A stretch of DNA of 45,879 nucleotides, taken from the NCBI GenBank assembly GCA_029266035.1, contig JAJUFH010000023.1, forward strand, positions 1 through 45,879. Reading direction: 5' to 3'. Origin of the DNA: Sinomicrobium sp. (lineage in GTDB: Bacteria; Bacteroidota; Bacteroidia; Flavobacteriales; Flavobacteriaceae). Below the pieces are notes generated by a model, which searched no databases, was not told the origin of the DNA, and worked only from the letters and a program-made list of their open reading frames with translations. Of the stretch, positions 2,620 to 26,545 are shown one piece after another. The stretch's first letter is position 1, and each line of letters begins with the position of its first letter. The translations under genes were made by a program, and so were the position numbers.

Positions 2620-3057
2620 TTATGAACAACCAAGAGGTATCTTGTTTACGCGGTTTTGATGCCTTCCTCCTTCAAATTCTGTATTCAAAAAGGTCTTTAC
2701 CATATCTAAGGCCTGTGGCAAGGAAACAAAACGAGCGGGAATACTCAATATATTGGCGTTGTTGTGTTCGCGAGCGAGTTGAGTAATCTCTTTGGTCCAA
2801 CAGAGTGCAGCTCGAATTTTTTGGTGTTTGTTGGCTGTGATTGCAGCGCCGTTACCACTTCCGCAGATAATAATTCCAAAATCGGCTTCGCCCGATTCTA
2901 CATCGTCCGCTACCGGGTGAATAAAGTCTGGATAATCCACACTGCTATCGGCATCTGTACCGTGATTGGTCACTGTGATCCCCATATCTTCGAGCAGTTC
3001 TTTTATCGCAAATTTATACGAAGTACCTGCGTGGTCGTTGCCTATAGAAATTTTCAT
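2620..3057 (-). CDS. rpiB: ribose-5-phosphate isomerase B
   Basis: 145 residues, the RpiB/LacAB length. It interconverts ribose-5-phosphate and ribulose-5-phosphate in the non-oxidative pentose phosphate pathway. The N-terminus MKISIGNDHAG carries the phosphate-binding His9. IIICGSGNGAAITANKH (residues 62-78) includes the catalytic Cys65 in the CGSGNG loop. First gene of a two-gene unit with the GNAT gene. Its 5' side faces the AT-rich, DnaA-box-like gap. Confidence 0.95.
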   Translation of the reverse strand: MKISIGNDHAGTSYKFAIKELLEDMGITVTNHGTDADSSVDYPDFIHPVADDVESGEADFGIIICGSGNGAAITANKHQKIRAALCWTKEITQLAREHNNANILSIPARFVSLPQALDMVKTFLNTEFEGGRHQNRVNKIPLGCS

Positions 3058-3613
3058 GGTGTAAACGTTTATATATGTGTACGCAAAGGTACTAAATAAG
3101 GCTTTTGAACCGCTATAAACAGCCTTGTTAATTTGATTTTATAAATATTTAATAATGAATTAATTATACCTTAACACTAACTGTTGATATTTATAGGCTA
3201 TAATCTCAAAAAATAATTTGTTTTTATCAAAATATATTGCAATATGCTTTTTTATTCGGATTAATCAAGTGGATTCTTTTAAAATTTCTCGGTTGGTTAT
3301 CAAGTTTAAAAACACAGTTATCAACACTTATTGGTACTGCTATTTATCAAATAAAAACTGTTATTTACAATTGTTCACAACTGTTAATTACTTCTCATTT
3401 ATCCGTAGAAATGAAGAGCTTATAGTGGGTAAAAACTGTTGATTACCCGGTATAATTTTTAATAAGAGACAAAGTCAAGTTTTTCCGGAAAAACTTACAC
3501 CACAAATTAACAGCCCATAATAACACATCAAAAAATATTTTAAAAAAAAAGAATTTATAATGATAATGTTAATTGTTGTTGATTACTTCTTGTGGTTAAA
3601 CTGGAAATAATAC
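3058..3613. other. AT-rich intergenic region with DnaA-box-like 9-mers; candidate oriC
   Basis: A 556-bp gap without a credible gene. It holds many near-matches to the DnaA box TTATNCACA, on both strands: TTATCAACA (3318-3326), TTATTTACA (3361-3369), TTGTTCACA (3371-3379), TTATCCGTA (3399-3407), TGTTGATAT (3182-3190), TGTTGATTA (3437-3445 and 3577-3585) and TGTGGTTAA (3591-3599). Two strongly AT-rich tracts flank the cluster (about 3132-3168 and 3529-3567), suitable as unwinding elements. No perfect TTATCCACA is present. The origin role is inference, helped by parS-like sites about 14.5 kb away. Confidence 0.45.
3084..3091 (-). promoter_or_regulatory. candidate -7 element of rpiB
   Basis: On the minus strand the sequence is TACCTTTG, matching TAnnTTTG, 27 bases upstream of the rpiB ATG. 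No clear -33 TTTG at 17-19 bp spacing was found. Confidence 0.45.
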
Positions 3614-3856
3614 TCAAACAATTCTCATTGTAGTGCCTTTATCTTCAAATTCTCTCAAGATTTCAATTGCGATATCTACGTCTTTGTGATGTACTTTTAG
3701 CTGTATTCCGCCAAGGGCATTGGAGTAGAAGGGGGTTATATTTACCATGGTTTCATTCTCGAAGACATGGGGAATTCCGGCATCTTCCAAAGCGAGGCGG
3801 AGCACCGCGTATTCGTAGGGGTATGTAAAGACCGCTATAGTTACAAATTCTTCCAT
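3614..3856 (-). CDS. DUF2007-type small protein
   Basis: 80 residues. The pattern AVFTYPYEYAVLRLALEDAGIPHVFENETMVN, then a Gly-rich turn and LKVHHKDVDIAIEIL, resembles DUF2007 (putative signal-transducing, PII-like ferredoxin-like fold), a small family common in Bacteroidetes and Proteobacteria. No signal peptide or membrane segment. Molecular function is unknown. It is divergent from rnr and borders the candidate oriC gap. Confidence 0.75.
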   Translation of the reverse strand: MEEFVTIAVFTYPYEYAVLRLALEDAGIPHVFENETMVNITPFYSNALGGIQLKVHHKDVDIAIEILREFEDKGTTMRIV

Positions 3857-3985
3857 CGACTTAGTTTGGTGTTATAGGTGTATAAAAATAGGGAAATATT
3901 ACTTTATTTAATTTTTAAGTTATACACTCTCGCCATGTTACTTCGATTATTATTTGTACTTTTCGAACATAATAGAAACGATTAT

Positions 3986-6181
3986 ATGTCAAGAAAGAAA
4001 AAACGTGCTGAGAAGCACAAAAAGAGTGAAATTATCAAGGGTATTTTTTCTGTACTCGAAAAGGATCCCAACAAATCATTCAACTATAAACAGATTGCTT
4101 CAAAACTGAATATTACCGATGCTGGAAGGCGCAATATACTCATAAAGAAACTGGTAGAACTCAAGGAAAAGAAATCTATTAAAGAGGTAGAACGAGGTAA
4201 GTATCAAGCCATACCTTCACTCAATTATTTTACAGGGATAGTAGATATTACGGGTAGGGGAAATGCCTATGTGATTTGTGACGAGCTGGAAAAGGATGTT
4301 TTTGTACCGTCGAATATGCTGGGAAAAGCCTTGCATGGAGATGAGGTAGAGGTGTATGTATTTCCAAGGCGATCGCGAAACGGAAAGAAGCTAGAGGGAG
4401 AGATTACCAAGATTATCAACAGAAAAAAGACAGCTTTTGTAGGAGTAGTTCAGATGCAGAAAAATTTTGCCTTTGTACTACCTACAGATTTTCGCATGTA
4501 TACCGATATTTTCGTGCCTAAAAACAAAATAAACGGCGCTGAACACGGCGATAAGGTATTGGTGGAGATCGAAGACTGGCCGGATAAGGCCGATTCGCCT
4601 TACGGCAAAATTCAAAAAGTATTCGGTAAACCGGGAGAGCACAATACCGAAATGCACGCCATTCTCGCTGAATACGGTTTGCCATACACCTTTCCGGAAG
4701 AAGTGGAGCACTATGCTAATCAGTTAGATACTTCTATCACAGCCGAGGAAATAAAGAAACGACGCGATATGCGTGAGGTGCTCACCTTTACCATAGACCC
4801 GGCAGATGCAAAAGACTTCGATGATGCGCTGTCTTTTAGAGTGCTAGACAACGGAAATTTTGAAGTGGGAATACACATTGCCGATGTGTCGCATTACGTA
4901 CAGCCGGGGAGTGTTCTCGACGAAGAGGCATACAACCGGGCTACTTCGGTCTACCTGGTAGATCGCGTAGTGCCTATGCTGCCCGAAATACTGTCGAACA
5001 ATGCTTGTTCCCTGCGTCCGAATGAAGAAAAATACACCTTTTCCGCAGTCTTTGAAATGAATGGAAAAGGGGAGGTGCTCGAACAGTGGTTTGGGCGTAC
5101 AGTAACCTATTCCGATCGGCGTTTTGCTTATGAAGAAGCTCAGGCTATTATAGAGCGACAGGACAATGTAGTGCCAAAAGAGGTATCGCTAAGCGGAGAG
5201 GAGTACAAAGTAGAACAGGAGGTAGCCGACGCTATTCTGAAACTGGATGAAATAGCCAAGATAATGAGGGTAAAGCGAATGAAATACGGCGCTATTTCGT
5301 TTGATAAGGTGGAGGTGAAGTTCGCCCTCAATGAGGATAATGAACCCACCGGAGTTTACTTTAAAGAGAGTAAGGATGCCAACAAACTCATAGAGGAGTT
5401 TATGCTGTTGGCCAACCGAAAGGTGGCAGAGTATATCGGAAAGGTAAAACCTCCAAAAACTTTTGTATACCGAGTGCACGACGAACCGGATGAGGACAAA
5501 TTAATACAGTTGCAGGGCATTGTTTCGCGTTTTGGATATGCTCTTGATATGAAGAGTAAAAAGACCATTACAAGCTCTCTAAACAACCTTCTCAGGGATG
5601 TTCAGGGCAAGAAGGAACAGAATATGGTCGATACTTTGGCTATACGTACCATGAGCAAGGCCGAATACACCACGCATAATATAGGGCATTACGGATTGGC
5701 TTTTGATTACTACACGCATTTTACCTCTCCCATACGGAGGTATCCCGATGTGATGGTTCACCGACTGTTACAGCACTATTTGGATGGTGGTGAGTCGGCA
5801 AAAGAGGAAGTTTACGAAGAGAAATGCAAGCATTCTTCTTCTATGGAAAATCTTGCGGTAAGTGCTGAAAGGGATTCTGTAAAGTATATGCAGATCAAGT
5901 TTATGGAAGACCGCAAGGACCAAGAGTTTGTCGGAGTTATTTCCGGTGTTACCGAATGGGGTATCTATGTCGAAATTATCGAGAATAAATGCGAAGGTAT
6001 GATTAGAATTCGTGAGATTCGCGACGATTATTACGTATTTGATGAGCGACAGTATGCACTGGTAGGTGAGGTGACCAAAAATATGTACCAACTGGGCGAT
6101 GAAGTGATTGTAAAAGTGAAAAGCACCGACTTGGTAAAACGCCATCTAGACTTCGAATTACTGGGAAAAGCCGAAGATTAA
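3986..6181 (+). CDS. rnr: ribonuclease R (3'-5' exoribonuclease)
   Basis: 731 residues from the ATG at 3986, close to the usual RNase R length. It degrades structured RNA processively from the 3' end. Visible in order: a basic start MSRKKKRAEKHKK, a winged-helix region (about 15-75), two cold-shock OB domains (about 80-220), the RNB catalytic domain with DPADAKDFDD (271-280) holding the metal-binding Asp residues, and a C-terminal S1 domain (about 640-725). An in-frame ATG at 3878 would add 36 hydrophobic residues and starts only 22 bp from the divergent DUF2007 gene. I reject it because the basic start at 3986 matches the family. Confidence 0.95.
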   Translation: MSRKKKRAEKHKKSEIIKGIFSVLEKDPNKSFNYKQIASKLNITDAGRRNILIKKLVELKEKKSIKEVERGKYQAIPSLNYFTGIVDITGRGNAYVICDELEKDVFVPSNMLGKALHGDEVEVYVFPRRSRNGKKLEGEITKIINRKKTAFVGVVQMQKNFAFVLPTDFRMYTDIFVPKNKINGAEHGDKVLVEIEDWPDKADSPYGKIQKVFGKPGEHNTEMHAILAEYGLPYTFPEEVEHYANQLDTSITAEEIKKRRDMREVLTFTIDPADAKDFDDALSFRVLDNGNFEVGIHIADVSHYVQPGSVLDEEAYNRATSVYLVDRVVPMLPEILSNNACSLRPNEEKYTFSAVFEMNGKGEVLEQWFGRTVTYSDRRFAYEEAQAIIERQDNVVPKEVSLSGEEYKVEQEVADAILKLDEIAKIMRVKRMKYGAISFDKVEVKFALNEDNEPTGVYFKESKDANKLIEEFMLLANRKVAEYIGKVKPPKTFVYRVHDEPDEDKLIQLQGIVSRFGYALDMKSKKTITSSLNNLLRDVQGKKEQNMVDTLAIRTMSKAEYTTHNIGHYGLAFDYYTHFTSPIRRYPDVMVHRLLQHYLDGGESAKEEVYEEKCKHSSSMENLAVSAERDSVKYMQIKFMEDRKDQEFVGVISGVTEWGIYVEIIENKCEGMIRIREIRDDYYVFDERQYALVGEVTKNMYQLGDEVIVKVKSTDLVKRHLDFELLGKAED

Positions 6182-10461: not shown

Positions 10462-10764
10462 ATGGAGTTTGTAGCCTTTTACCATACAGGTGTAGAGAAT
10501 GATATTTTTAGGGCTAGAGATTGGTATAAAAATCAACGAGATGGATTGGAAACTCGTTTTTCAAAGGAGGTTAAATCTACAATTCAGCAAATAATTTCGG
10601 ATCCTTTTATTTTTCAAAAAAAGTATAAAGAGGTGAGAATTGCGTACACCAAAATATTTCCTTTTGGAATTCATTTTCGTGTGAATGATGTTCATAAAGA
10701 AATAATAATTTTGGGAGTTTTCCATACATCGGTAAATCCTAAAAAATGGGAAAAACGCTTATAA
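10462..10764 (+). CDS. RelE/ParE-superfamily toxin
   Basis: 100 residues. The pattern FYHTGVENDIFRARDWYKNQRDGLETRFSKEVKSTIQQIISDPFIFQKKYKEVRIAYTKIFPFGIHFRV is the ParE/RelE fold: two N-terminal helices, then strands with a conserved Arg and Phe-Pro-[FY], ending in LGVFHTSVNPKKW. Members inhibit gyrase (ParE) or cleave mRNA on the ribosome (RelE); the subtype cannot be decided here. Start ATG follows the antitoxin stop by 2 bp. The next gene converges 13 bp away. Confidence 0.85.
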   Translation: MEFVAFYHTGVENDIFRARDWYKNQRDGLETRFSKEVKSTIQQIISDPFIFQKKYKEVRIAYTKIFPFGIHFRVNDVHKEIIILGVFHTSVNPKKWEKRL

Positions 10765-17100: not shown

Positions 17101-17538
17101 GTCATGGAAGAAGGGGAGGGCGATGCGGAGGCGCTGTATGAGATATACAAACAACAGCAATTGTTGCGAGAGGCTCTTGAAAAACAACTTGAGGAGATGG
17201 GAGACAGTCCGGGGAGTAAGGATGGCCAACAGCTATTGCGTGAGATGGAAAATGTTGAAAATACACTCTTGCGTGAAGGGATGAATGAAACGAGCATGAA
17301 ACAGATGCTCAACCTTAAACACGAGTTGTTAAAGTTGAAGGAAGCTGCTATGGAACAGGGAACAGAAAACCGGAGGGAGAGCAGTACAGCGACAAATGCC
17401 TATAAAAGAGAAGCGGTAAAGACTTTGCCTGAAGTAGAGGAATATTTGCAGGGAGTGGAAATATTAAACCGACAAGTATTACCTTTGCGGCAAATTTATA
17501 AAGATAAGGTAAAAAAATATTTTAGTCGCGATGATTAA
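14191..17538 (+). CDS. DUF4175 family large membrane coiled-coil protein
   Basis: 1115 residues. Three hydrophobic segments lie in the first 190 residues (about 36-60, 66-90, 167-190); a beta-rich extracytoplasmic region with VEVHFNGQRYFM and MTGFEMQLHYPSYIKRSSDTLRGTG follows. Then comes a very long charged coiled-coil (about 508-790, Glu/Lys/Arg/Gln) and a Gln/Glu/Gly-rich tail with SMGSGSGSGEMQLPD. Layout and length fit DUF4175, a Bacteroidetes family of unknown role. Its stop overlaps the ybeY start by 8 bp, so it is translationally linked to ybeY, and mnmG follows. A structural or envelope-scaffold role is only a guess. Confidence 0.85.
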   Translation: MQDRREKYETEALKEIKQKLERFIRKYYANTLIKGVLLFTAIGLLYFLFTLFVEHLFWFGKGGRTLLFWLFVFVEVYLLYRFIGIPLMKMFRWQKGIGYKEAATIIGAHFPEVGDKLINVLQLSESSAQYSERDRELLLAGIEQKSVQMQAFSFHFAVDFKRNLKYVKYALIPFAIVFIVWISGNISWFSDSYKRVVDYRTAYEPPAPFKFFVMNDALNGIANKAFEVRVKVVGEILPEDVEVHFNGQRYFMQKEGVDSYKYVFEQPQKDISFYLSSGKVSSKAYLLRVDAAPLMTGFEMQLHYPSYIKRSSDTLRGTGNATVPEGTEVLWVLNTENTTGVSWSSSDTLIQFEKEHSKGDKAVFSMSKHLYANISYNITTANEKLKDYESLGFDIRVIKDEYPEIDVKEVHDSTALEATAFVGQISDDYGFYKLTVNYYPEGEEEKEIKKELKIASGATVFRFAQAFPGDLKLGQGLNYLVYFEVRDNDVLRGGKSAKSSLFSYRMQTKEEIEREASAQQKEAIKNMERTLGHMKDREEEGKEIRTLNMEKEEKSFNDQQRIDNYLKEQLEQEKMMRRFTRELEDRLEQAPESNDPLEKKLLQERLERQQEELERDRALMEELREVSEKIDRKDMARRLEQLARTEQSGKRNLEQLLELTKRYYVTQNADRLQRELERMAEEQKSLAEDSNEEEVLKKQRDLNEEFKSWREEMRKLEEDNEGLKKPMELGSNSEQEEDVEKQQQDAIEGIEQSDRENAEKKQRNAAEQMKKMAEKMSSSMLQGQASSDMEDAKALRQILKNLVTFSFRQEDLMRLVNRLQSEAPDLSGSIHQQHNLKEMFTHVDDSLFALSLRRPELSEVLNKELADAHFYIEASLDQLAENEVYRAVASQQYSFTAANNLAALLSEVLDNLQENMSMGSGSGSGEMQLPDIIQSQEQLNEQMKQQIDGDKNKSGEEGKEKGDGESGEGDVMEEGEGDAEALYEIYKQQQLLREALEKQLEEMGDSPGSKDGQQLLREMENVENTLLREGMNETSMKQMLNLKHELLKLKEAAMEQGTENRRESSTATNAYKREAVKTLPEVEEYLQGVEILNRQVLPLRQIYKDKVKKYFSRDD

Positions 17539-17950
17539 TTTTTATTATGAATCTGATTTTACCTTGACGGATGAAGAAATTTATGCCGATTGGATAAATC
17601 GCGCCATTGTTTCGGAGGGCAAGGAGACTGGGGAGATCAGTTATATTTTTTGTGACGATGAGTATCTTTTGAGCCTTAATCAGAAATACCTGGACCACGA
17701 CACGCTTACCGACATTATTAGTTTCGACTATACTGAAGGCGACATTATTCACGGGGATATTTATATTTCTGTAGAAAGGGTTCGCGACAATGCGGCCGAT
17801 TTTAATATTGCTTTTGAAGAAGAACTCAGGAGAGTTGTTATTCACGGTGTGCTGCACTATTGTGGATATAAGGATAAGACGGAGGAGGAGAAGGTCGTGA
17901 TGCGTGGAAAAGAAGAAGAAAAAATGGCACTGTTCCACGTGGAACAGTAA
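17531..17950 (+). CDS. ybeY: endoribonuclease YbeY, 16S rRNA maturation factor
   Basis: 139 residues, UPF0054. YbeY is a metal-dependent factor for 16S rRNA 3'-end maturation and 70S quality control. The motif is HGVLHYCGYKDKT: His105 and His109 are present, but the third metal His of HGxLHLxGYDH is Asp115 here, a variation I recall from Bacteroidetes homologues. It starts inside the last codons of the DUF4175 gene. Its last codons (HVEQ, stop) lie in a perfect parS-like palindrome (17929-17948), so the C-terminus may be shaped by that site. Confidence 0.92.
   Translation: MINFYYESDFTLTDEEIYADWINRAIVSEGKETGEISYIFCDDEYLLSLNQKYLDHDTLTDIISFDYTEGDIIHGDIYISVERVRDNAADFNIAFEEELRRVVIHGVLHYCGYKDKTEEEKVVMRGKEEEKMALFHVEQ
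17929..17948. promoter_or_regulatory. parS-type site 1, exact TGTTCCACGTGGAACA in a 20-bp palindrome
   Basis: The perfect palindrome ACTGTTCCACGTGGAACAGT overlaps the 3' end of ybeY. Its core at 17931-17946 agrees with the chromosomal ParB-binding consensus TGTTNCACGTGNAACA at every defined base; the same 16-mer is known as a parS site in pseudomonads. ParB would load here and spread for chromosome segregation. Confidence 0.8.
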
Positions 17951-17972
17951 TTTTTTACAGGTGAGTTTGTGG

Positions 17973-17988
17973 TGTTCCACGTGGAACA
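17973..17988. promoter_or_regulatory. parS-type site 2, exact TGTTCCACGTGGAACA
   Basis: A second exact copy of the 16-mer, 42 bp from site 1 centre to centre, in the 103-bp gap between ybeY and mnmG. It is non-coding, so protein constraint cannot explain it. Confidence 0.8.
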
Positions 17989-18053: not shown

Positions 18054-19925
18054 ATGTTCGACAACACGTATGATGTTATAGTAGTAGGAGCGGGCCATGC
18101 GGGTTCGGAAGCGGCGGCAGCGGCGGCCAATATGGGGTCGAAAACGCTGCTTATAACAATGAATTTGCAGAATATCGCTCAGATGTCTTGCAATCCCGCT
18201 ATGGGCGGAATTGCAAAGGGACAGATTGTTCGAGAGATCGATGCCTTGGGCGGATATAGCGGTATAGTAGCCGATAAAACAGCTATTCAGTTTAAGATGC
18301 TCAACAAATCGAAGGGGCCAGCTATGTGGAGTCCGAGAGTGCAGTCGGATAGAATGCGATTTGCAGAGGAGTGGAGGTTGATGCTTGAACAAACTCCTAA
18401 CCTCGACTTTTACCAGGAAATGGTGTCAGGATTATTGGTAGAGAACGGAAAGATTGCAGGGGTAAAAACATCTCTAGGAATAGAGGTAAGGGCGAAGGCT
18501 GTTGTTCTTACTAATGGGACTTTCCTGAACGGATTGATTCACATAGGAGAAAAACAATTCGGAGGGGGAAGAGCAGGAGAACGGGCCGCCACGGGTATAA
18601 CAGAAGAGTTGGTAAATCTCGGTTTTGATGCCGGGAGAATGAAGACGGGTACACCGCCGAGAGTAGACGGAAGATCGCTGGACTATTCTGTTATGCAAGA
18701 ACAGCCAGGAGACGATGTGCCGGAAAAGTTTTCGTATTCCGATCTTACTAAGCCTCTCGAAAAACAACGGTCGTGTTATATGACCTATACCAGTCCTGAG
18801 GTGCACGATCTGCTCAGAGAAGGCTTCGATCGTTCGCCTATGTTCAACGGGAGAATTAAAAGTATTGGTCCGAGATACTGCCCTTCAATAGAGGATAAAA
18901 TCAATCGTTTTGCCGATAAAGACAGACATCAGTTGTTTGTAGAACCGGAAGGGTGGAACACTGTTGAGGTATACGTAAATGGCTTTTCAACTTCACTGCC
19001 CGAAGATGTTCAGTTTAAAGCATTGCGATCGGTTGTCGGATTTGAAAACGTCAAGTTTTTCCGTCCCGGGTACGCTATAGAATACGATTATTTTCCTCCT
19101 ACTCAGCTCCGGCATACCCTCGAGACAAAACTGGTAGAAAATCTGTTTTTTGCCGGACAAATCAACGGTACTACCGGGTATGAAGAGGCCGCTTCACAGG
19201 GGCTTATGGCAGGGGTGAATGCGCACTTAAAAGTGTATGGAAAGGATCCGTTTGTCCTCAAGAGGAACGAAGCTTATATAGGGGTGCTTATAGACGATCT
19301 TATCACCAAAGGAACCGAAGAACCGTATCGTATGTTTACCTCGAGAGCGGAATATCGAACACTTCTTCGACAGGACAATGCCGATTTTAGACTTACACCT
19401 AAATCGCACGATATAGGACTGGCTTCTGAAGATCGCTTGCGCAGCATGGAGAAAAAGAAGAATAATGCCGATGCCTTTATTCACTTTTTCAGAGAAACCA
19501 GTGTAGACCCCTCAGAGATGAATTCGGTGCTGGAAGAAAAAGGATCCTCCTTGATGAAACAGTCCGACAAGCTGTACAAAGTGTTTTCCCGTCCCAATAT
19601 CACGATGGACGATATGATGAAAATAGGGGAGGTAAGGCAGTATGTAGAAGCGCATCAGTTGGATAAAGAAGTGCTGGAACAAACGGAAATACAGGTGAAG
19701 TATTCGGGATATATAGAGAAGGAAAAGAACAACGCGGATAAACTGAATAAACTCGAAGATATAGCCATTCCTCCCGGCTTTGATTACGACAAATTGAAAT
19801 CGCTCTCCTTTGAGGCGAGGGAGAAACTCAAAAACATCCGTCCAGCTACACTTTCACAGGCGTCGCGTATCAGTGGAGTATCACCTAGCGATATCAGTGT
19901 AATGCTGGTGTATATGGGACGATAA
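18054..19925 (+). CDS. mnmG: tRNA uridine-5-carboxymethylaminomethyl modification enzyme MnmG (GidA)
   Basis: 623 residues, the MnmG length. With MnmE it installs cmnm5 at U34 of several tRNAs. The FAD Rossmann motif is VVGAGHAGSEAA (residues 10-21); SCNPAMGGIAKG and GTFLNGLIHIGEKQFGGGRAGE are MnmG signatures, and the C-terminal helical domain that binds MnmE ends in QASRISGVSPSDISVMLVYM. In many bacteria this gene (gidA) lies near the origin beside parA/parB. Here parS-like sites lie immediately before and after it, although no parAB is in the window. Confidence 0.97.
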   Translation: MFDNTYDVIVVGAGHAGSEAAAAAANMGSKTLLITMNLQNIAQMSCNPAMGGIAKGQIVREIDALGGYSGIVADKTAIQFKMLNKSKGPAMWSPRVQSDRMRFAEEWRLMLEQTPNLDFYQEMVSGLLVENGKIAGVKTSLGIEVRAKAVVLTNGTFLNGLIHIGEKQFGGGRAGERAATGITEELVNLGFDAGRMKTGTPPRVDGRSLDYSVMQEQPGDDVPEKFSYSDLTKPLEKQRSCYMTYTSPEVHDLLREGFDRSPMFNGRIKSIGPRYCPSIEDKINRFADKDRHQLFVEPEGWNTVEVYVNGFSTSLPEDVQFKALRSVVGFENVKFFRPGYAIEYDYFPPTQLRHTLETKLVENLFFAGQINGTTGYEEAASQGLMAGVNAHLKVYGKDPFVLKRNEAYIGVLIDDLITKGTEEPYRMFTSRAEYRTLLRQDNADFRLTPKSHDIGLASEDRLRSMEKKKNNADAFIHFFRETSVDPSEMNSVLEEKGSSLMKQSDKLYKVFSRPNITMDDMMKIGEVRQYVEAHQLDKEVLEQTEIQVKYSGYIEKEKNNADKLNKLEDIAIPPGFDYDKLKSLSFEAREKLKNIRPATLSQASRISGVSPSDISVMLVYMGR

Positions 19926-19943: not shown

Positions 19944-19959
19944 CGTTCCACGTGAAACA
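19944..19959. promoter_or_regulatory. parS-type site 3, one mismatch
   Basis: CGTTCCACGTGAAACA lies 18 bp after the mnmG stop. It matches TGTTNCACGTGAAACA at all but the first base and is intergenic. Confidence 0.65.
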
Positions 19960-24994: not shown

Positions 24995-26545
24995 ATGAAG
25001 AGTTTTTTTACTGCCCTTTTATTTGCCGTATTGATCGCTCCGGTTTACGCACAGGATGTCGCAGAGGCTGTACAGAAACAAGAAAGTGATTTTTCAGCAC
25101 CTTCTCCAATAGTGTCCAAAAATAACGATTCTATTATTCCCGATGTAACCATAGAAAAAGTAGATGGCAAATATCGCCTTCGCGATAATGCACTTGCAGC
25201 CCGTATAGATAGTCTGTGGCTCAGGGAACTATACGACAACAGCCTTTTCGACACTATCGCAGAGATGGTGAACGACATGGATTACAAGGAGGTAGACTAT
25301 GCCGAGCTTCCCACAGATGTGTTAAAGGCTCGACTGGAAGCCTTAAATGAAAAAACACCTTTTAATATTTCGTACAACCCGGAATTGGAGAGCGTTATCA
25401 AGAACTTCCTCAAGAACAAAAGGGAGTTTCTGGAGCGGACTATGCAGAAGAGCACGTACTACTTTCCCCTGTTTGAGCAGGAATTGGACAACAGTGATAT
25501 CCCATTGGAAATGAAATATCTCGCCATAGTTGAATCTGCCTTAAACCCCAAGGCAAAATCTTGGGCAGGAGCTACTGGGATTTGGCAATTTATGTACGGA
25601 ACGGGAAAAATGTACGGACTTGAAGTCAGTTCTTATGTCGATGAACGCAGTGATCCGGTAAAGTCGACCAAAGCGGCTTGTGCATATCTCGGCAAACTCT
25701 ACGAAATATTTGGTGATTGGGATTTGGCATTGGCTGCGTATAATTCCGGCCCAGGAAATGTATCCAAAGCCATACGCCGTTCGGGCGGATACCAGAACTA
25801 TTGGAATCTCCGACCATTTCTTCCACGTGAAACAGCGGGCTATGTGCCCTCGTTTTTGGCGATGATGTATATTTTCGAATACGCAGGCGAACACGGACTA
25901 AAAGCTCCCAAATCCGAAATGCCCTATTTCGAGACCGATACGGTACACCTTAAGCGCTCGCTTAGCTTCGACCATATTTCCGAAATAGTGGGCATCGATA
26001 TAGCGCAACTACAGTTTTTAAACCCCGCCTACAAATTGGATATAGTGCCGGTTATCGAGGGAGAAGTTCACCCTTTGCGTCTCCCCTCTGAGGCCCTTGG
26101 AAAATTTGTGGCCAATGAAGAAGCCATATATGCTCATATCGAAGCCGAAGAAGCCAAAAAAGAGAAACCCTTGCCTCAGTTCTTCGAAAAGAACACCAGT
26201 CTTACCTATAGAGTGAGAAAGGGAGATTATCTCGGACGTATAGCCGGCAAATACGGAGTGAGGGTGAGCGATATTAAAAGGTGGAACGGATTGAGAAGCA
26301 ACAATCTTAGAATAGGACAAAGACTTACCATATATTCCCGAAGAGCAATGCTTACAGCGGCTAAAAACAATGAAAAAACTCAGAATATCCCCAGCAACAA
26401 GATCTATACCGTAAAGCGAGGGGATACACTTTGGACGATTTCCAGAAAATTTCAGGGAATTTCTATAAAAAATATACGAGAATGGAACGATATTAGTGGG
26501 GATAAATTAAAACCTGGAATGAAGCTGAAGCTTTGTAACTGTTAG
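24995..26545 (+). CDS. membrane-bound lytic murein transglycosylase D-like with two LysM domains
   Basis: 516 residues. The signal peptide MKSFFTALLFAVLIAPVYAQ is followed by the SLT domain: YLAIVESALNPKAKSWAGATGIWQFM places catalytic Glu at 180, and AAYNSGPGNVSKAI and LPRETAGYVPSF are MltD signatures. Two LysM peptidoglycan-binding repeats lie at about 405-448 and 469-513. It cleaves the glycan strand, forming 1,6-anhydroMurNAc. It resembles MltD, but without a lipobox I leave the symbol blank. A parS-like sequence sits inside codons 275-280. Confidence 0.93.
   Translation: MKSFFTALLFAVLIAPVYAQDVAEAVQKQESDFSAPSPIVSKNNDSIIPDVTIEKVDGKYRLRDNALAARIDSLWLRELYDNSLFDTIAEMVNDMDYKEVDYAELPTDVLKARLEALNEKTPFNISYNPELESVIKNFLKNKREFLERTMQKSTYYFPLFEQELDNSDIPLEMKYLAIVESALNPKAKSWAGATGIWQFMYGTGKMYGLEVSSYVDERSDPVKSTKAACAYLGKLYEIFGDWDLALAAYNSGPGNVSKAIRRSGGYQNYWNLRPFLPRETAGYVPSFLAMMYIFEYAGEHGLKAPKSEMPYFETDTVHLKRSLSFDHISEIVGIDIAQLQFLNPAYKLDIVPVIEGEVHPLRLPSEALGKFVANEEAIYAHIEAEEAKKEKPLPQFFEKNTSLTYRVRKGDYLGRIAGKYGVRVSDIKRWNGLRSNNLRIGQRLTIYSRRAMLTAAKNNEKTQNIPSNKIYTVKRGDTLWTISRKFQGISIKNIREWNDISGDKLKPGMKLKLCNC
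25819..25834. promoter_or_regulatory. parS-like sequence inside the transglycosylase gene, one mismatch
   Basis: TCTTCCACGTGAAACA differs from TGTTNCACGTGAAACA only at position 2. It encodes LPRET of the conserved MltD motif, so protein constraint could explain part of the match. Confidence 0.4.

Follow-up and report, generated by a model that had tools for sequence, protein, structure and literature searches.

In the part of PMC7022226 drawn on here, location of the par operon within the origin domain, the 20% of the chromosome around oriC, is given as a conserved feature. A related palindrome and a related protein family are found in the Noc/NBS system, and in the sections of PMC7383237 on which we rely R173 and G201 are absolutely conserved in ParB and altered in Noc, which carries Q173 and R201 at these positions, while K or R stands at position 184 in about 28% of ParBs. 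For the phylum considered here, the covered portion of PMC4755523 describes an oriC commonly distant from dnaA, and a Hi-C study of gut bacteria, two Bacteroidetes included, places parS clusters at the origin and not systematically at dnaA (PMC10197239, parts covered). A literature search by titles and the beginnings of abstracts found parS in this phylum only in PMC10197239, a depth of search that does not by itself show such sites to be unprinted.

The window, by which we mean the whole stretch of DNA analysed (45,879 nucleotides), is one entire contig (C16) of a 3,045,063-base assembly of 51 contigs that is 96.8% complete. The original prediction placed two exact copies of a 16-mer, identical to a known chromosomal parS, 42 bp apart between ybeY and mnmG, with one copy extending to a perfect 20-bp palindrome. 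The copies, their distance from start to start and the palindrome (ACTGTTCCACGTGGAACAGT) are all present, and the 16 letters are those of the chromosomal P. putida entry in the table of PMC7022226, as far as that article was covered. The placement stands for the second copy, which lies in the spacer, and needs correction for the first, which falls in the final codons of ybeY (peptide LFHVEQ followed by the stop codon). The features around mnmG are as follows.

17531-17950, + strand: ybeY, rRNA maturation RNase (TIGR00043, E 3.6e-31; PF02130)
17931-17946, no strand: predicted parS site 1, TGTTCCACGTGGAACA, exact match to the 16-mer, within the 20-bp palindrome at 17929-17948
17973-17988, no strand: predicted parS site 2, TGTTCCACGTGGAACA, exact match, in the ybeY-mnmG spacer
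18054-19925, + strand: mnmG/gidA, with sites on both flanks (TIGR00136, E 1.7e-257; PF01134)
19944-19959, no strand: predicted parS site 3, CGTTCCACGTGAAACA, two mismatches to the 16-mer
25819-25834, no strand: possible weak site 4, TCTTCCACGTGAAACA, inside an MltD-like transglycosylase gene

Site 3 starts 18 bp past the mnmG stop codon and deviates at its first letter from the form TGTTNCACGTGNAACA, which both exact copies match. No further copy of the exact 16-mer occurs in the 3.05-Mb assembly, for which an order-1 Markov model of the window predicts 4e-4 copies (6e-6 for the window itself). When up to three mismatches are allowed, the window holds four sites against a shuffle mean of 0.12, and none of 100 shuffles reached four. 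An even spread of sites around the chromosome would have spoken against the original prediction; at up to two mismatches the assembly holds four, every one on the window's 45.9-kb contig, one of the 51. Site 4 may be a chance match, because a reversed-letter control at the same threshold also yields one match in the whole assembly, and none of the other five genus genomes searched has a site at the corresponding position about 6 kb past mnmG. We consider it very probable, from sequence and comparison, that these palindromes are chromosomal parS sites, a redundant cluster at which ParB is predicted to load and from which ParA would drive separation of the origins.

The arrangement is constant in the genus genomes searched. 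All six, the window's own included, have two sites upstream and one downstream of mnmG, and the start-to-start spacing within the upstream pair drifts (42 bp here, and 35, 46, 36, 215 and 110 bp in the others). In an alignment of the six ybeY-mnmG regions, with a mean identity of 49% when all columns are counted, site 1 has 15 invariant columns out of 16, five of the six rows contain site 2 (the G002 row having been trimmed to one of its two sites, 215 bp apart), and, sites and gene ends excepted, the region aligns poorly. By eye, the ybeY reading frame ends in site 1 in four of the six rows.

A different role for site 1 would be as an intrinsic terminator of the ybeY transcript, made of a hairpin and a T run, with its likeness to parS secondary. 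The segment 17928-17949 does appear terminator-like on both strands, AATTTTTT follows site 1 on the + strand, and the RNA of site 1 folds at -11.4 kcal/mol (z -2.7), with z -3.5 for site 2. The T run, however, is found in this genome alone of the six aligned rows, against 15 of 16 invariant columns for the palindrome; site 2 has no T run, site 3 folds no better than shuffles (z +0.8), and the region contains four terminator-like matches where shuffles give 2.7. On the folds, the shuffle comparison and the alignment we reject termination as the main role, which we regard as very unlikely, though site 1 may end transcripts as a side effect.

Beyond the genus, we searched the genomes of 60 relatives, own included, and found mnmG in 59; 58 loci were examined, leaving out G010 (no match) and G020 (mnmG split across two contigs). 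Sites with no more than one mismatch to TGTTYCACGTGRAACA occur within 500 bp upstream of mnmG in 49 of the 58, downstream in 44, on both sides in 40 and on either side in 53; at up to two mismatches the number of genomes with an mnmG-flanking site rises to 56, with G028 and G051 as exceptions. In contrast, control DNA from four relatives (80 stretches of 20 kb, 1.6 Mb, originally picked for skew and with the mnmG loci outside them) contained no site at up to one mismatch. A draw across the phylum found mnmG in 99 of 99 genomes, and among the other 29 of the best 30 of these 99 loci (own included in the 30) a site is present in 23 at up to one mismatch and 26 at up to two, with none within 1.5 kb of mnmG in the remaining three at up to two mismatches; because only the best 30 loci were taken, this sample leans toward near kin, and it shares G040 and G053 with the 58.

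At up to two mismatches of the 16-mer, four of the 60 genomes have no site. Three of them, G010, G046 and G047, have a parB all the same and speak against the parS reading. The fourth, G051, speaks for it: this genome, from the same order and only 0.34 Mb in size, has mnmG, and neither parB nor sites were found in it. Degenerate sites adjoin mnmG in G046 and G047, and the origin region of G010 may be unassembled, because its rpiB match is missing along with that of mnmG. The reverse case, sites with no parB found, occurs in G008 and G059, which are 80% and 83% complete.

When named genomes were scanned for pairs of sites whose starts are 26-56 bp apart, at least 118 stretches emerged, which are not a random sample. 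An mnmG match lies in 47 of the 118 listed, and an MnmG tree of 42 listed stretches includes Bacteroidota, Pseudomonadota, Bacillota, Verrucomicrobiota and Bdellovibrionota. Because several phyla are found among the matches listed, tandem parS beside mnmG is widespread. The window's MnmG clusters in this tree with two Flavobacterium rows, with 81% identity to the nearest, which makes a member or near relative of the Flavobacteriaceae the probable source. One contig in the tree, at L196, is labelled Alistipes and its MnmG clusters with Lachnospiraceae; it is perhaps misbinned.

Sites so regularly placed just upstream of mnmG could also be operators for a regulator of mnmG or ybeY, and their retention at that position in 49 of 58 genomes is what such a role would predict. 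Sites also lie downstream of mnmG in 44 of the 58, though, and the distance from the upstream site to the start of the mnmG match ranges from 6 to 317 bp. In G028, mnmG, at 1277 kb, has no site nearby, whereas three sites lie inside 1.6 kb at 997-999 kb, about 280 kb away, next to orthologues of two genes of the window, the methyltransferase (52% identity) and OmpH (54%), with a LysE orthologue also beside them and the end of the rnr orthologue (68%) 3-5 kb distant. G028 thus amounts to a natural experiment: the sites still have their neighbours around them and mnmG no longer does, which means that they are not control elements of mnmG, and on this arrangement we reject the operator, a very improbable reading. 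Just as improbable is the idea that the two sites, 42 bp apart, form a phased tandem of four helical turns (42 = 4 x 10.5) needed for cooperative ParB loading, which we reject because spacings drift within the genus and beyond it (55 bp in G019, 35 bp in G008), because only a single site lies within 500 bp upstream in 38 of the 49 genomes that have any there, and because periodicity is weak (Rayleigh p 0.013, 0.078 and 0.34 for periods of 10, 10.5 and 11, uncorrected for the three periods, over 142 pairs from the at least 118 non-random stretches).

If the palindromes are parS, the genome should encode a ParB to read them. A ParB family search of the assembly gave a single match, on contig C39, where parB comes second in a parA-parB pair; both genes are outside the window, as originally noted, and on a different contig from the sites. 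The protein has ParB_N, HTH_ParB and ParB_C domains, and a ParB family protein and Spo0J come out as its nearest solved chains (best E 6e-53), with Noc structures also among the structural matches. It contains the stretch GERRFRA, which we take to be part of the CTP site. Placed by spacing from the HTH glutamine in the numbering of PMC7383237 (parts covered), and with the Caulobacter protein left unaligned, its residues read Q162, G170, K171, R173, N178, K184, G201 and R204, with K at position 172 against S in that source. The ParB thus has the parS-type specificity residues R173 and G201, and no Noc protein, with Q173 and R201, was found in the genome. A second ParB-family protein, with a frame of about 600-660 residues, occurs in G001-G005, G017, G022 and G026 and was not found in the window's genome; a second ParB-family match in G035 contains an internal stop. 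The window also holds, at 10462-10764, an ORF with a match to the ParE-toxin family (PF05016, E 8.5e-6).

The position of the parA-parB pair departs from the canonical ParABS layout, in which the par operon lies in the origin domain. The original prediction noted that mnmG in many bacteria adjoins parAB near oriC; here the pair is on a separate contig from mnmG. Across 24 closed or two-contig genomes, parB is separated by 0.17-2.3 Mb (8-48% of the genome) from the sites or from mnmG, which served as the stand-in for the origin in most of the 24, without a skew test. In 22 of the 24 the distance exceeds 10% of the genome, the others being G047 (9%) and G061 (8%); 15 of the 24, and also G026, have genome sizes rounded to 0.1 Mb, G066 consists of two contigs, and the two-contig G029 and G046 were searched and stand outside the count. 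Because parB lies beyond 10% in 22 of 24, the counted genomes depart from the rule in PMC7022226, as given in its covered part. In nine single-contig relatives the initiator gene dnaA is 24-49% of a genome length away from the sites or mnmG; in G000, dnaA is alone on a 3.7-kb contig (C10, locus L011).

Closeness of the sites to a minimum of cumulative GC skew, which was proposed as a check, is seen in the closed congener G003, the window's own genome being in contigs. In this 5.36-Mb chromosome, eight 20-kb samples between 0.1 and 2.0 Mb have negative skew, twelve samples between 2.13 and 5.13 Mb are positive with one exception at 2.26 Mb, and at 5.25 and 5.34 Mb the sampled skew is slightly below zero. 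The cumulative minimum, computed over a contiguous 430 kb in which smaller swings are also present, is at 2,316,110, which is 14-16 kb away from the sites (2,299,912-2,301,975), and falls inside the gap between rpiB and rnr. The window's own minimum, at 3679, falls in the same gap, although it is weak evidence, being a small dip with only 3.7 kb of contig on its left. Elsewhere, the sampled sign change in G019 comes 7-62 kb before mnmG; in G049, where skew is weak, it comes at 775-790 kb, 24-39 kb after mnmG, with rpiB in that interval; and 20 samples from G028 are irregular and of mixed sign. The features of this gap are as follows.

2620-3057, - strand: rpiB-like isomerase gene bordering the gap on the left (PF02502)
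3058-3640, no strand: proposed oriC, the AT-rich part of the rpiB-rnr gap, at the skew minimum and with DnaA-box-like repeats
3878-6181, + strand: rnr, RNase R-like gene bordering the gap on the right (PF00773)

We propose the rpiB-rnr gap at 3058-3640 as a candidate oriC. A+T makes up 74% of the 600 bp before rpiB here and 69-83% over 30 loci (own included), of which two stop at contig ends, and an rnr match is present in 21 of these 30 rpiB loci. The window's gap contains no standard DnaA boxes (TTATCCACA or TTWTNCACA) and does contain TTATCAACA and variants, repeats that resemble DnaA boxes. A variant motif selected after these repeats had been viewed, T[AT]AT[CT]AACA, is present in 28 of the 30 regions, 72 times in all, against a shuffle mean of 5.2 and a maximum of 10 in 20 rounds, with four occurrences in the window's gap and four in the 1.3 kb before rnr in G028.

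A search with TIGR02168, the sole condensin model applied (ScpA, ScpB, MukB and MksB lie outside it), gave no Smc match over the cut-off in this 96.8% complete genome, while 10 of 14 control genomes exceed it. Five sub-threshold Smc matches exist; the weakest, a 1093-aa frame on contig C50, was set aside because the part of it inspected by eye resembles a phage tape-measure protein. Two Bacteroidetes species are likewise described, in the covered parts of PMC10197239, as having no homologue of known condensins.

For parS sites so arranged, we infer ParB binding, clamp loading, spreading and segregation along the following lines. The single ParB would load on the palindromes as a CTP-dependent clamp and, once loaded, spread over the flanking DNA around mnmG; ParA would then move ParB so that freshly copied origin regions part. 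Two sites before mnmG and one after it would together provide a redundant loading cluster, in which exact spacing would be immaterial. The partition operon would serve its centromere from afar.

A broader and more tentative idea, which we think possible though doubtful, is that mnmG with its flanking parS, rather than dnaA or parAB, is the lasting origin landmark in much of the phylum, the centromere having kept its place as the partition operon and the initiator gene dispersed, and that, given the missing standard Smc match, ParB at these sites serves ParA-driven segregation alone or loads an unknown condensin. If true, this would offer a cheap origin landmark for draft genomes of the phylum, where dnaA misleads, and the oriC candidate 14 kb from the sites is named in a form that can be tested.

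In comparison with known systems, the parS sites themselves are ordinary, and their distance from parAB and dnaA, together with the missing Smc match, is less so. The parS of P. putida, P. aeruginosa and other bacteria likewise consist of few origin-near sites served by one ParAB pair. Unlike in those systems, the window's sites lie on both flanks of mnmG, at about 14 kb from the proposed origin, and the par operon is distant. Unlike the Noc system, the window's genome has the ParB-type residues at positions 173 and 201 and a single member of the family. The parS clusters of gut bacteria, placed at the origin by Hi-C, come from species other than the window's, and mnmG goes unmentioned in the covered parts of PMC10197239.
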